A stretch of 64,000 bases of DNA from Fimbriimonadaceae bacterium (GTDB lineage Bacteria > Armatimonadota > Fimbriimonadia > Fimbriimonadales > Fimbriimonadaceae): contig JAHBTD010000004.1 of the NCBI GenBank assembly GCA_019638775.1, positions 186,001 to 250,000 on the forward strand, in the 5' to 3' direction. How positions within the stretch are numbered: position 1 is the stretch's first letter; each line of letters begins with the position of its first letter. Of the stretch, positions 24,006-53,151 are shown in pieces. Position numbers and translations under genes: made by a program. The notes beneath the pieces are model-generated. The model ran no database searches. It was not told the DNA's origin and saw only the letters and a list, made by a program, of their open reading frames with translations.

Positions 24006-25634
24006 TTGGACGCTACAACATTAACAACAATTCTTCTCGCAGTTGTCGCGCTGTTCTCATGTGCAACAGTTGTTTGGCTCATTAAAGCGAAAACTGAGTC
24101 CGCAAAAGTACACAAGCAAGAGATTGACACTCTAAACGACAAACTAACGGAGGCTGCAAAAAGTGTTGGCAAGGCTGAGGAGTTAAATCGGACGCTGGAC
24201 TCTGTGAGGCAAGACAGGACAACAATTGACGACAAGTTACAAACAGTTCTGGAAGAAGTCAATCGACTTACAGAGGAGCTTTCAATCGCTCGAACAGAAC
24301 GAGACAGCGCACAAAGAAACTCTGAACAACAGATCCAGGCAGAAAGAGAGACTTGCGCCACGACGATCGAGCGTGAAAAATCGACATGCGCAGAACTTAT
24401 CCAAAGAGAAAAAGAAGCATGTCAAGACATCCTTTTGGCAAAGGACCAGGAGATCAAAGCCAAAGATATCCAAATTGAAAATTTGAAGCTGTTCATCGAT
24501 AAGGCGAGTGAAACCCTTGGAACACATTTTAAGGCTCTTTCACATGAAACGCTCAAAGACGTGTCAGCACAATTTGAGAAAGCCGCCAAGCAGGTCATCG
24601 AGCAAAACTCAGAGACGACGGCGCAGAATGTAAAGCTCCACAAAGAACAGATAGAAAAACTGCTGCAGCCTGTTGGCTTGACTTTGGATCAACTCAACCA
24701 GCTTGTCAAGGACACCAATGAAAAGCGAGGCGAAGCCGAGGCTGTACTAATGGAGAAGATCAAAGATTTTGCAGGCGCCAACGAAAAGTTAGCAAATGCG
24801 CTCAACAAGCCAGTCATTCGGGGATCATTTGCTGAAACCAAGCTTGAGTCACTTCTAGAAGCCGCCGGGTTAGTTCGCGGCGAGAACTTCGAATTACAAG
24901 TACCTGTGAAGGACGGTGACCAACAGCGCACTGTAGACGCATTGGTGGATATGGCTCAGGGCAAGAAGTTAGTAATTGATAGCAAGAATCTTTTGTTGCC
25001 ATTCGTCGAATACGCAAATGCACCTGAAGATCAGCGTGAAGCGCGTCTATTAGACTTCCAAAGAGCCTTTCGAACTACTCTCAAAGCTCTTAGCATTAAA
25101 GATTATGCAAAGCACTGGGAGGGTATAGATGCTGTAATAATGTTTCTACCTGACGAAGGAATGTACATGGCAGCTATTGAGTCAGATCGCCAACTCATAG
25201 CAACTATGTTCGAGCAACGGGTTTTCACTGTAAGTCCTGTCTCCCTGTTACCGATCCTCAAATCTGTAGCTTACATTCTTGGTCTCGAAAAACAGAATCG
25301 AGATACACAAACTATCGTCGACGCTGGACGTGCCCTTTATGAATCTCTTGGGGTCATTCTTGGCAAAATAAATACACTTGGCGACAGGATGGAAGCTAGC
25401 ATGGAAGCGTACAATGGAGTCATAGCTAGCTTTGAAGGTAACGTGTTACCTAAAGCTCGGCAACTCCGTGAGCTAGGTATTCAACGTGGAGCGGCACACA
25501 AGGACATACCCATTAGAGAGCCGCTACGAAGGGAATTTAAAGATAGAGTCACAAAGGAGTTGGCTGGCTCAATGGCGATCGTACGGGATGAGAAAACATC
25601 AGAAGTTAAATCTGCCGAAAAGAAGGATAGATAG
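24006..25634 (+). CDS. rmuC: RmuC-family DNA recombination protein
   Basis: A 542-residue protein with one N-terminal membrane helix (about 3-25), a long coiled coil (about 30-190) and the RmuC nuclease-fold domain (about 225-510; KPVIRGSFAETKLESLLEAAG, VDALVDMAQGKKLVIDSKN, VIMFLPDEGMYMAAIE). E. coli RmuC limits inversion at short inverted repeats, which is notable here because the window is full of them. The start is a TTG at 24006 with GAAGGTG upstream. The gene is visibly more AT-rich than its neighbours, with many AAA, CAA and ACA codons. Confidence 0.92.
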   Translation: MDATTLTTILLAVVALFSCATVVWLIKAKTESAKVHKQEIDTLNDKLTEAAKSVGKAEELNRTLDSVRQDRTTIDDKLQTVLEEVNRLTEELSIARTERDSAQRNSEQQIQAERETCATTIEREKSTCAELIQREKEACQDILLAKDQEIKAKDIQIENLKLFIDKASETLGTHFKALSHETLKDVSAQFEKAAKQVIEQNSETTAQNVKLHKEQIEKLLQPVGLTLDQLNQLVKDTNEKRGEAEAVLMEKIKDFAGANEKLANALNKPVIRGSFAETKLESLLEAAGLVRGENFELQVPVKDGDQQRTVDALVDMAQGKKLVIDSKNLLLPFVEYANAPEDQREARLLDFQRAFRTTLKALSIKDYAKHWEGIDAVIMFLPDEGMYMAAIESDRQLIATMFEQRVFTVSPVSLLPILKSVAYILGLEKQNRDTQTIVDAGRALYESLGVILGKINTLGDRMEASMEAYNGVIASFEGNVLPKARQLRELGIQRGAAHKDIPIREPLRREFKDRVTKELAGSMAIVRDEKTSEVKSAEKKDR

Positions 25635-30657: not shown

Positions 30658-30788
30658 GCGGTGGCTTGCCGACTTTTCAAGCTGAGATTGGGGGAGTCCG
30701 TCGTATACTGTGAGGGGGAGTTCTTAGCCTCAGGACTGTAGGATGAGACAGGATGCGCGTTAAGCTATGCGCGTCCTGAGGCATCAAA
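30658..30788 (+). repeat. cassette element A (promoter-like part plus hairpin)
   Basis: Left part contains TCGTATACTG (TATACT at 30704-30709). Right part is a hairpin whose arms are TTAGCCTCAGGAC (from 30725) and GTCCTGAGGC (30773-30782), ending in ATCAAA. An inner hairpin (ATGCGCG around TTAAGCT) is specific to this copy. It precedes orphan gene 1. Confidence 0.75.
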
Positions 30789-30837
30789 CATCTGGTTAAA
30801 TATGCGATGATCTTCGACCTGTTTAAGGAGGTGCTAC

Positions 30838-31668
30838 GTGCTAATTGTTAGCATTATTTCTCTAATTTACCTGCAATCTGACGCATTTAAGCTTCCCGTT
30901 GTGGACGCAAGAGTCACTTCCGTATCATATTCAACTTCGCTCAGTGGTGTCTTGGTTACCCAAGATGTGGCACATTCTGAAAAAAGTAATAGTCGAACTT
31001 CTATAGGAATTGTTAAGAATTTGAGTCCTTTTGTCAGCGAAGAGTACATTAGCACATCAGGTTACATGGTTATCAAAAGCGATCTGTCTCGCATCACCGT
31101 CGCAAATTACTTTGAAATGGCGACGGCTTTGACACCCAATGAATACAGTGAGCCTGAGAGAAAATGCGTTAAGCTTATTGAGCGGCAAGGCTATGCGTTT
31201 CAAAATCGTTACAAGTGCTGTTCGCGCATCACCGACAACTTGTCAGTGTGGGTTACCAAAGATCGAACTATAGGTCAATCAAAAGTACCTGAAGTTCGAA
31301 GAGACAGCGAAGGTAGCTATCGACTTTATCTAACAGATGACTTAATTGAGAAAGATGATGAAGTGAGCTACATCATCTTGCTTGTAGATAGTAAAGAAGA
31401 GACAGCAAAGGAAGTTTTACGGCTACGTAAAAAACCCCTGCATATAGAAAGAAAAGTAAGTAGCGAAGTCGCAATAGATCCGCAATCCAAGATACTATAT
31501 TCATGTTACGATGGACTTTTTTTTGCGCTTCAGTTAGATAGCTTTTTCCGTGTTACCGGAGTTGCTTCAAAACAAATGATGTGTGGTGCCGCAACTTTTG
31601 ATGCCTCAGGGCTGCAGGCCGTAGCCGGAGAGAGGATGAGAAGTGCGCACCCTGAGGCATCAAAATGA
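30838..31668 (+). CDS. AT-rich orphan gene 1, exported protein
   Basis: A 276-residue protein that I do not recognise. The start is a GTG at 30838 with a perfect Shine-Dalgarno (TAAGGAGGTG) six bases upstream. The N-terminus VLIVSIISLIYLQSDAFKLP is hydrophobic and may be a signal peptide or anchor. The body is beta-strand-rich, with a KCCSR pair. The last 24 residues (from DASGLQAVAGERMRS) are encoded by hairpin element B, so the C-terminus is repeat-derived. Its stop overlaps the start of the next gene (ATGA). Base composition is far more AT-rich than the chromosome around it. Confidence 0.65.
   Translation: MLIVSIISLIYLQSDAFKLPVVDARVTSVSYSTSLSGVLVTQDVAHSEKSNSRTSIGIVKNLSPFVSEEYISTSGYMVIKSDLSRITVANYFEMATALTPNEYSEPERKCVKLIERQGYAFQNRYKCCSRITDNLSVWVTKDRTIGQSKVPEVRRDSEGSYRLYLTDDLIEKDDEVSYIILLVDSKEETAKEVLRLRKKPLHIERKVSSEVAIDPQSKILYSCYDGLFFALQLDSFFRVTGVASKQMMCGAATFDASGLQAVAGERMRSAHPEASK
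31596..31665 (+). repeat. cassette element B (hairpin only)
   Basis: A perfect 16-bp inverted repeat: TTTTGATGCCTCAGGG at 31596-31611 and CCCTGAGGCATCAAAA at 31650-31665. The loop starts CTGC and ends TGCGCA, so pairing can continue past one bulged C. The last A is the first base of the next start codon. Confidence 0.85.
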
Positions 31669-32078: not shown

Positions 32079-32280
32079 TCTCACCACCTATGTGTACGAT
32101 TGGGGGATCGCCTGATTGGGCAGCAGATTGCGAATGCGTGGGCGACGCATTCGTCCATGATGAAGTTGGGAACATCCTAGGGAAACAGCATCAGGCCAAG
32201 GCTCCCATGACCATGGTCTATGACCTTGCCGGAAGGAATACCACCCTGATCCAAGGCGAGATGATGACGACACTTGGATG
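32041..32280 (+). pseudogene. Rhs/YD-repeat gene remnant
   Basis: Two frames hold typical Rhs repeats: DLDLTTYVYDWG (from 32071, then a stop) and, in the next frame, FVHDEVGNILGK and TMVYDLAGRNTTLIQG. The change of frame falls near a GGGGG run at about 32092. The remnant is bounded on the right by element C'. It is the relic of a large Rhs/wall-associated or polymorphic-toxin gene. Confidence 0.7.
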
Positions 32281-32341
32281 CCTCAGGACGCACTTACCTC
32301 CTCAGTCCACCCATGCAGGCATACAGTCTTGAGGCTAAGAA
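32274..32341 (-). repeat. cassette element C' (hairpin only, inverted)
   Basis: Read on the minus strand it begins TTCTTAGCCTCAAGACTGTA and ends GTGCGTCCTGAGGCATCC, matching element A in the same order. It abuts the Rhs remnant and faces element C head to head. Confidence 0.75.
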
Positions 32342-32364: not shown

Positions 32365-32508
32365 CGCAGCGCGGCTACCTTCTAATATCTCTGACCGGGC
32401 GTGTCCGTCGTATACTGAGAGGGTGAATTAGGAGTCGGCAGTCTCAGCCTCAGGGCTGCGGACAGGGACAGGAGAAGGAGGGCGGAGTACGCACCTTGAC
32501 GCATCAAA
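32365..32508 (+). repeat. cassette element C (promoter-like part plus hairpin)
   Basis: The left part CGCAGCGCGGCTAC aligns with element D, then GTCCGTCGTATACTGAGAGG with TATACT at 32411-32416. The hairpin arms are GCCTCAGGG (32447-32455) and CCTTGACGC (32494-32502), followed by ATCAAAA and directly by the ATG of orphan gene 3. Confidence 0.8.
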
Positions 32509-32509
32509 A

Positions 32510-33058
32510 ATGAGACTACCTCATATCCTAATCTTACTTGCAATGACAACAGTAATCATTACCACTAGCGTAGTGTTAAATCATTATTCGCACTCCCAAA
32601 CACAGAAGATACGAACACACAGTTATATTACTGATGGGTTTCTAAAACTTTCAAAGACAACTATCTTTGATTCACCGATCATTATTGACAAGTCTGATCC
32701 TACGAAAATGAAATTGTGTCGACAGTTATCGAACATCATTGACCGCCATGGGGCCTATCCAGCGACACCGATGGCGGAGGTCGAAAAGCAAAGCGAGGGT
32801 AAAGCCATTGTAACTATTGTGGATCCATCCGTGTGCGATTCCATGTTTGCAAGCACTGACGACTGCTTGGCTACAGCCGCATCTTGCCAATGGATGATTG
32901 AAACACATCCACAAGTTGAACAATTTGAGCTGCATGTCTATTACTCAGAGGTTCAGCAGTGCTGGTTTGGCGTCATTACGCCGTTTCCGGCAAAGCCTGA
33001 TCTGTATCACGAGTTGACATTGGTAAGGTCACCCGACGGTTCATATATGGTTCGGTAA
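32510..33058 (+). CDS. AT-rich orphan gene 3, single-pass or secreted protein
   Basis: A 182-residue protein with one N-terminal hydrophobic helix (MRLPHILILLAMTTVIITTS) and a polar remainder containing four or five cysteines. I do not recognise a domain. The ATG comes immediately after the ATCAAAA end of element C, with no Shine-Dalgarno in the usual place, so the 5' leader would be about 90 bases if TATACT in the element is its promoter. AT-rich like the other orphan genes. Confidence 0.6.
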   Translation: MRLPHILILLAMTTVIITTSVVLNHYSHSQTQKIRTHSYITDGFLKLSKTTIFDSPIIIDKSDPTKMKLCRQLSNIIDRHGAYPATPMAEVEKQSEGKAIVTIVDPSVCDSMFASTDDCLATAASCQWMIETHPQVEQFELHVYYSEVQQCWFGVITPFPAKPDLYHELTLVRSPDGSYMVR

Positions 33059-33081
33059 AGTTGATAACGGATACATATGGC

Positions 33082-33128
33082 TTTGATGCCTCAAAACGCG
33101 CACTCAGACACGCAGTTTGACGCCTCAG
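33082..33128 (+). repeat. two half-arms of the cassette hairpin
   Basis: TTTGATGCCTCAAAACGCGC (33082) and GTTTGACGCCTCAGGACACA (33115) are two direct copies of one hairpin arm without matching partners, immediately before element D. They look like the debris of an older element. Confidence 0.55.
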
Positions 33129-33132
33129 GACA

Positions 33133-33269
33133 CACAGCGTGGCTGCTTTCTGAAATCTTTGATTGGCTTGTCTATCGTATACTGAGGGCGTGGATTCGGC
33201 GGTCTTAGCCTCAGGGCTGCAGGCCGGGACTGGAGCGAGGATGAGAAGTTCGCACCCTGAGGCATCAAA
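33133..33269 (+). repeat. cassette element D (promoter-like part plus hairpin)
   Basis: CACAGCGTGGCTGC aligns with element C, then CTATCGTATACTGAGGG with TATACT at 33178-33183. The hairpin arms are GCCTCAGGGCTGC (from 33208) and CGCACCCTGAGGCATCAAAG (33251-33270). It is almost identical to element B from GCCTCAGGG onward. Confidence 0.8.
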
Positions 33270-33294
33270 GTTATTCCAACGCGCAATTTGCAGC

Positions 33295-33660: not shown

Positions 33661-33674
33661 TTGTTAGAATTATC

Positions 33675-33735
33675 TTGATGCCTCAGGATGCGTAGGACTC
33701 GTGTTACGGTGCATCCTTAAGCCAAAGTCCTGAGC
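33675..33735 (-). repeat. cassette element E (hairpin only, inverted, diverged)
   Basis: On the minus strand it reads GCTCAGGACTTTGG and later CGCATCCTGAGGCATCAAG. It closes the array on the right, opposite in orientation to element A on the left. Confidence 0.65.
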
Positions 33736-33770
33736 TATTGACAACCATACAAGGGCTATATCCCCGAGTA

Positions 33771-51794: not shown

Positions 51795-51915
51795 GGTGAC
51801 CCTATTCGTAATCAACGGGTGGGGCAGTTTTCTTGGCGGTGCGACATCACGAGGCATTGTCACGATCAAGCAACGCACGTCGCTACGGCTAACACTTCAA
51901 TCTCAATCAACGCCT

Positions 51916-52812
51916 CTATTCATCCAAAAATATGACATCGTCAGCATCTAAATGCCACATCAATGTTAAAGACCGTAGACTTAACACATCTAGTTTTGCG
52001 CCACCCAATTGACGTCTGCGTATTACAAACCAATTTTTTGATAGTTTCATCTCGTCTATCGAAGAAACTACGCCAAATTCATGTAGTAAGTAATTATCGT
52101 TCTTCTTGAATACAAACAATCGAGTGCTGCCAGCGGAATAATCGACTCTTCTTAAGCCGCGGATAATTACTGTCCTATCTGAATCAGTAACAATCCAAGG
52201 CCCTCGTTTTTCACCAATCATATGTTCACGGAAATCAGGTGATACTAGTCCTTCACCTACGGTCCCGACAAGATCGTGTTTCTTCACTAACGCCATCGGC
52301 AATGATTTATCTTTAACTCCCGTGGACGACGAGTTCCCACCCATCCGTTCAGTCTTGCGCCATTGAACAGTTCCATCTCTCCGTACTTCCCCAGTTGATA
52401 CGACAGCCTGCCTGGAAATCATAGAAACAGGTTCTTCGATCTCGAACTCTGTATTGGATAGCCACTTCGGATTCTTTGCGGTCATTCTATATGAAATAGG
52501 TCCCTTTACAGCAAACGTTTTCGTGTTGAGAATCCATAACTTATAATCATACATTTCATTTGCCCATACGAGAGCAGTACTAAAATCTGAATTTTCCCAG
52601 AGCGTTACTGACTTGAATACTTTTTCGCCCTTCAATCGGACCTCATCTGGCTCTGGATTAATGGTCCATTTATCAGCATCGAACAGATTTTTTCTTACAA
52701 GAATACTTCCGTTTTTTTCTACTTTCGCAATGACAGCCGTATCTGCTTTTACAGTTGGAGATTTCTCATCTACTCGGCTACAAATAATTGTGCATATTAC
52801 CAAGCTAATCAT
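51916..52812 (-). CDS. AT-rich orphan gene 5 (distant member of the cassette group)
   Basis: A 298-residue protein of unknown family. The N-terminus MISLVICTIICSRVDEKSP could be a short lipoprotein signal (Cys near 11). The rest is beta-rich with many W and K residues (KPGPWIVTDSDRTVIIRG style repeats), compatible with a propeller. AGGTGA stands just before the ATG at 52812. It is far more AT-rich than its neighbours, and a diverged copy of the cassette element lies upstream in the same orientation, as with the orphan genes at 31-33 kb. Confidence 0.65.
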   Translation of the reverse strand: MISLVICTIICSRVDEKSPTVKADTAVIAKVEKNGSILVRKNLFDADKWTINPEPDEVRLKGEKVFKSVTLWENSDFSTALVWANEMYDYKLWILNTKTFAVKGPISYRMTAKNPKWLSNTEFEIEEPVSMISRQAVVSTGEVRRDGTVQWRKTERMGGNSSSTGVKDKSLPMALVKKHDLVGTVGEGLVSPDFREHMIGEKRGPWIVTDSDRTVIIRGLRRVDYSAGSTRLFVFKKNDNYLLHEFGVVSSIDEMKLSKNWFVIRRRQLGGAKLDVLSLRSLTLMWHLDADDVIFLDE

Positions 52813-52923
52813 AACTCACCTCATACTCAAACCCACGTATAAGTTGATCGTCGCGGCTGCAATAAACACGATCCCACGACATACTATCTTCTCGTTCACC
52901 ACAGTTACCGCCATCACACCTCC

Positions 52924-53050
52924 GATGCCTAAGAGTGCCAGTCCTTCTTCCCTTCGCTCCACTCCCGCTGCCAGAGCCTAAATCAACGGCAAGCCTCTCA
53001 CGAACTCAGTATACGATGGCTCAAGCTAGCATTCAGCCTCACGATCACAG
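52924..53050 (-). repeat. cassette element F, diverged copy
   Basis: On the minus strand it reads CCATCGTATACTGAGTTCGT (TATACT at 53013-53008), then GATTTAGGCTCTGG, GCGGGAGTGGAGCGAAGG and CACTCTTAGGCATC. These align in order with element D (CTATCGTATACTGAGGG, TTAGCCTCAGGG, CCGGGACTGGAGCGAGG, CACCCTGAGGCATC). The hairpin pairing has decayed. Confidence 0.7.
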
Positions 53051-53151
53051 CGAGTGCGTCACCCAAGCAGGCAACGGGCAAGAGCTCGGGGACGGGACGC
53101 AATACTTCAGCGCGGAGTGTAGGTGTGGGAACACAGGCGGCCTAAAAAACA

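Follow-up and report, generated by a model that had tools for sequence, protein, structure and literature searches.

REP elements are usually regarded as selfish, cargo-free repeats of intergenic DNA. The typical make-up of REP/REPIN repeats and their RAYT (TnpA-REP) enzymes is on record (PMC3116915, PMC3733652, PMC6006769): extragenic palindromes that fold as hairpins stand as inverted doublets with a spacer, the same repeat flanks a Y1 gene, and a GT[AG]G guide tetranucleotide lies 5' of the hairpin foot. In TIRtrons (TIRYT), RAYT-like genes are flanked by inverted, non-GTAG-REP repeats, which can form small dispersed families (PMC3733652). In integron cassette arrays, single genes are parted by folded attC sites, with little non-coding DNA. 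The repeat family described here was followed from a window of 64,000 nucleotides of a Fimbriimonadaceae bacterium (contig JAHBTD010000004.1, positions 186,001 to 250,000; the window is the whole stretch analysed) into the rest of the genome and into related genomes. The tRNA synthetases of the bacterium, about 65% identical to those in named genomes, point to the Fimbriimonadaceae (Armatimonadota). One eroded copy, termed F, and the AT-rich orphan gene behind it are the main subject; the features are compiled in Table 1.

The intact unit of the family, TAGCCTCAGGR...YCCTGAGGCATCAA, is a hairpin repeat with the layout TAGCCTCAGGRCTG, about 32 variable bases and GYGCRYCCTGAGGCATCAA, almost always 63 nt in length and often arranged as inverted pairs. 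A single stem position alone changes on both sides, being A-U in seven and G-C in six cases, while the remaining covariation counts of the stem are modest. As single-stranded DNA, elements A, B and D fold much better than their shuffles, and E no better than its own. The covariance model picks out 20 sites in this genome and gives matches, some of them weak, in 13 of 60 related genomes. Inverted pairs occur in this genome and in three relatives (G004, G006 and G013); the usual form in G004 and G006 is R'L', a spacer of 10-18 nt, and LR. In this genome the spacer measures 60-120 nt and the right half also bears a TATACT block. The foot of most copies reads TTAG, and GTAG was found only in copies g, h and g_.

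In the relatives the repeat is linked to Y1 transposases. In G004 and G018, two inverted copies closely enclose a Y1_Tnp (IS200-like) gene with their L ends. R1-like hairpins lie at nine Y1 transposase loci in nine relatives, in eight cases about 350 bp or less from the gene and in one case 1.2 kb off. Further transposases in relatives have flanking hairpins with the same feet (TAGCCTC...GAGGCAT) and other stems, and the members with R1-like flanks do not form a single clade in the transposase tree. None of the Y1 or other transposase genes examined in the bacterium's own genome is flanked by the 63-nt repeat. Three of its Y1 transposase genes (L075/L102, L076 and L077, at G000 C4:147.6k, C2:835k and C1:813k) each have a short repeat of their own alongside, such as CCCTCCATAACTGCAGTTATGG, which suggests further REP families. 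As a separate observation, copies of the 63-nt repeat recur in tandem about every 101 bp beside a Y1 transposase gene in G006 (C2:283622-284328; L081, L099).

The 63-nt repeat thus has a good but not complete claim to belong with the REP/REPIN elements. Extragenic hairpin repeats, inverted doublets, a Y1 transposase gene flanked by inverted copies in relatives, and different transposases going with different stems are shared features; membership is incomplete because the foot is mostly TTAG and no transposase of the own genome was found flanked by the repeat. Some published REP subclasses likewise lack the GT[AG]G guide (PMC6006769). Further differences are the length of 63 nt with a long loop, the long spacer with its TATACT block, the low copy number, and the strong association with AT-rich orphan genes. 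F itself neither folds as a hairpin nor stands in a doublet, apart from a possible trace of another half. From the TIRtrons, which the family resembles in having RAYT-like genes flanked by inverted repeats other than GTAG REPs, it differs in that each end is itself a hairpin. The likeness to integron cassettes lies in the arrays of single genes between folded sites with little non-coding DNA. An integron reading is rejected: the feet TAGCCTC / GAGGCAT contain no attC core GTTRRRY and the sites are inverted in pairs instead of all running in the same direction; a search for the integron integrase IntI (TIGR02249) gave no match above the cut-off, the best reaching 75 of 265 bits.

Table 1. Repeat elements and neighbouring genes, in positions of the window.
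Feature	Position	Strand	Basis
Element A (block, L, R)	30689..30789	+	covariance model, profile
Element B, two R ends forming a near-perfect palindrome	31596..31665	+	covariance model
Element E, left half of the inverted pair formed with C	32273..32341	-	covariance model
Element C (block, L, R), right half of the pair formed with E	32396..32511	+	covariance model, profile
Shortened left half, paired with D	33081..33129	-	covariance model
Element D (block, L, R); internal ATG at 33241 opens the next gene	33161..33273	+	covariance model, profile
Closing half behind the fourth array gene	33673..33741	-	covariance model
AT-rich orphan gene, 298 aa, GC 0.408	51916..52812	-	composition and homology searches
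Predicted 32-codon ORF, GGAGG upstream, in frame with the orphan gene, TGA GTT between	52816..52914	-	sequence, translation
F, eroded copy of the right repeat half (TATACT block, L arm, loop and R arm), without its hairpin	52924..53020	-	profile, Smith-Waterman versus D, fold z +1.8
Conserved block ATCGTATACTGAG in F	53005..53017	-	sequence
Candidate trace of left-half end and spacer (GTGAGGCTGAATGCTAGCTTGAGC)	53021..53053	-	collinear with copy h

A first-pass annotation of the window had read F as a diverged copy of the D-type element 20 kb away, with its blocks in the order of D on the minus strand, and all four quoted blocks were indeed found there in that order. A plain BLASTN search of the genome with F as query recovered no element below E = 5, so that the claim needed a better test. 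F scores 13.9 bits with the full-length profile built from six copies (E = 0.0015 for the window), and 30 locally shuffled windows gave no score above 7.1 bits. The local alignment of F with D, its nearest family member, scores 40, while 2008 other places in the window average 12.5 (sd 2.2, maximum 26). Since F may have been chosen for its exact ATCGTATACTGAG, this block was taken out before the comparison was repeated: F and D were still identical at 47 of 54 positions (gaps apart), and their score lay above those of all 3000 dinucleotide shuffles (Gumbel p 3e-5 to 6e-5) as well as all 3010 background windows. The part of F below the shared block is thus significant by itself (p about 5e-5), and the similarity to the array elements goes beyond chance. 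The block ATCGTATACTGAG is common to F and D, whereas C and A differ from it by one or two bases; TCGTATACTG occurs seven times in the 4.3 Mb genome, four of these being in A, C, D and F. The TATACT within ATCGTATACTGAG is a possible -10 box, and a promoter scan of F gave no complete sigma-70 pair.

A structure-aware comparison, of the kind that had been proposed as a check, went the other way: even with every filter off, the covariance model of the 63-nt core gave no match to F at E-values up to 10, and the single-stranded DNA of F folds worse than 199 of its 200 shuffles. A match of 55 bits to the R2 model is circular, because F had been included in that model. What is preserved in F is the TATACT block, the purine-rich loop and GGCATC; the stem is gone. 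The homology tests that F passes and the structural tests that it fails together argue that F is, as judged from its sequence, a true relative of element D whose hairpin has been destroyed. The stretch beyond F runs collinear to copy h (p = 0.006 before any correction for the five comparisons made) and is suggestive of a trace of the opposite, left half of the repeat.

Directly downstream of F, a GGAGG site precedes the short ORF that is in frame with the orphan gene. The composition of this gene, called AT-rich from the start, stands out as supposed: it has the lowest GC content among the 51 genes of the window, and the four next-lowest, at 0.42-0.45, are those of the array. Its description as an orphan is also upheld, as its product has no homolog above the cut-off in Pfam or in the searches of a genome collection (close relatives only), plasmids and phages, and no convincing one in the 60 related genomes, where a single 72-residue match reached E = 0.009. 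An AlphaFold model of the protein, computed without relatives, has a pLDDT of 31, too low to be of use. A reading of the locus as a tRNA-Asn island was rejected, as the window shows no tRNA end in duplicate; a search of the window against Rfam returned tRNAs only. The tRNA-Asn is absent from the homologous stretches of the named relatives, and hence no empty site can be demonstrated at F.

That the pairing of element and AT-rich gene recurs at an independent locus, and that the array at 31-33 kb is therefore not a local duplication only, has been borne out, the same pattern being present at four loci outside the array: F, C2:70 kb, C2:184 kb and C2:442 kb, the last without a block. The copy at C2:70 kb is eroded, was found via its block and precedes a small membrane-like protein; Pfam does not place the genes behind the four in one family. 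Six of the eight genes that lie behind a block-bearing copy and run the same way as it have a GC content of at most 0.45, a count in which copy g is scored by a 202-aa gene (GC 0.42) and not by the 73-aa frame (0.51) that starts within the repeat, and from which copy n is left out (gene GC 0.505; degenerate block). A strict count gives five of nine, still far above the 3 of 287 genes (1%) at or below 0.45 in 16 background stretches; the Mann-Whitney comparison of the genes behind block-bearing copies with this background yields p = 5e-6. The association of the repeat with AT-rich genes is accordingly real and far above chance, and it may in part reflect the tolerance of islands towards insertion.

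The orientation of the copies relative to genes follows a rule that covers several loci. Block-bearing copies point at gene starts in 9 of 10 cases and the other copies at gene ends in 12 of 14, counts which overstate the evidence, since the comparison was made post hoc and the copies within one array are not independent. Element D was counted by hand: its gene begins inside the repeat, at the internal ATG, and was for this reason missed by the script. An ATG within the repeat, also in copies B and g (L097 7903-7971), starts frames reading MRS(S/A)HPEASK, so that the repeat provides the start of some downstream proteins. As regards the array itself, element B differs from every other copy in being a two-R-end palindrome with a 38-nt loop, and a defence or phage identity was found for none of the array genes.

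On balance it appears somewhat more probable than otherwise that F represents the right half, now decayed, of a REP/REPIN-type repeat and acts in cis, its block and leader serving as promoter and 5' untranslated region of an acquired gene. Y1 (IS200-like) transposases would, to judge from the known family, presumably have spread the hairpins as single-stranded DNA; a repeat would have settled, or have been kept, in front of the acquired gene, where the TATACT block and the leader may drive its expression, and the hairpin of F, no longer needed for movement, could then have eroded. The homology of F, the existence and inverted pairing of the family, its link to transposases in relatives and its association with AT-rich genes and gene starts are shown, whereas promoter activity, transposition by a Y1 enzyme and the order of events are what we infer. 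The total of about 20 copies in the genome, few for a REP family, counts against it, as do the mostly TTAG foot, the lack of a complete sigma-70 pair in F, the failure to find the repeat beside any of the own-genome transposase genes examined, the mutual dependence of the array copies and the possible tolerance of islands towards insertion. If correct, copies of a REP family would flag, with a fixed polarity, where acquired orphan genes begin and end, a route by which repeats could supply promoters to new genes or carry them, and F would illustrate that the link between repeat and gene can outlast the hairpin.

A rather unlikely, purely passive origin would make F a REPIN-like remnant without function for its gene, the repeats simply landing in poorly constrained intergenic DNA, of which AT-rich islands offer more. 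The random distribution reported for REP doublets in extragenic space (PMC3116915), the decay of the hairpin in F and the several copies at the ends of ordinary genes (GC 0.55-0.59) are in line with such an accumulation, which, on the other hand, predicts no rule of orientation of the kind observed at gene starts and gene ends.

The polarity, together with the genes enclosed by inward-facing halves, would be accounted for if the hairpins were the ends of movable single-gene cassettes, with a promoter carried by the 5' half but not by the plain 3' half, mobilised as a unit by a Y1 transposase in trans; we regard this as distinctly improbable. The term cassette, used for the element from the outset, holds in so far as R> and <R halves bracket a gene or gene pair in six cases (A-B, B-E, C, D, g-h and n-n3). 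These enclosed genes are AT-rich and mostly without a Pfam match, their ends are mostly no more than 100 nt from the repeat ends, some of their starts lie within the element, and the 5' and 3' halves differ consistently. The term is unproven for F, behind whose gene no closing half was detected and a short ATGCCTC-like stretch near 51850 gave no score, so that F would have to be an old, immobilised cassette that lost its closing end. Furthermore, the transposase gene of the relatives is found on the L side of the halves and not on the R side, and no empty site or target duplication could be established. Y1 transposases are not known to mobilise inverted-end cassettes like these. Were it true, AT-rich orphan genes would be carried about the genome as an integron-like collection that needs no integron integrase.

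Finally, it is very improbable that F is no copy at all, but a common promoter region whose likeness to D is due to chance or to shared promoter and ribosome-site motifs: the failures of BLASTN and of the core covariance model at F, as well as the frequency of TATACT-like and purine-rich stretches in leaders, would fit, but the similarity runs collinearly for some 100 nt, stays significant once the block is removed, and exceeds that of every background window.

Two further genes may be mentioned. An RmuC-family gene in the window (24006-25634) has an unusually low GC content (0.455), and no repeat was found adjoining it. An AT-rich gene for an Mrr-type restriction endonuclease (L096 11728-12765) ends 8 nt from a repeat half.
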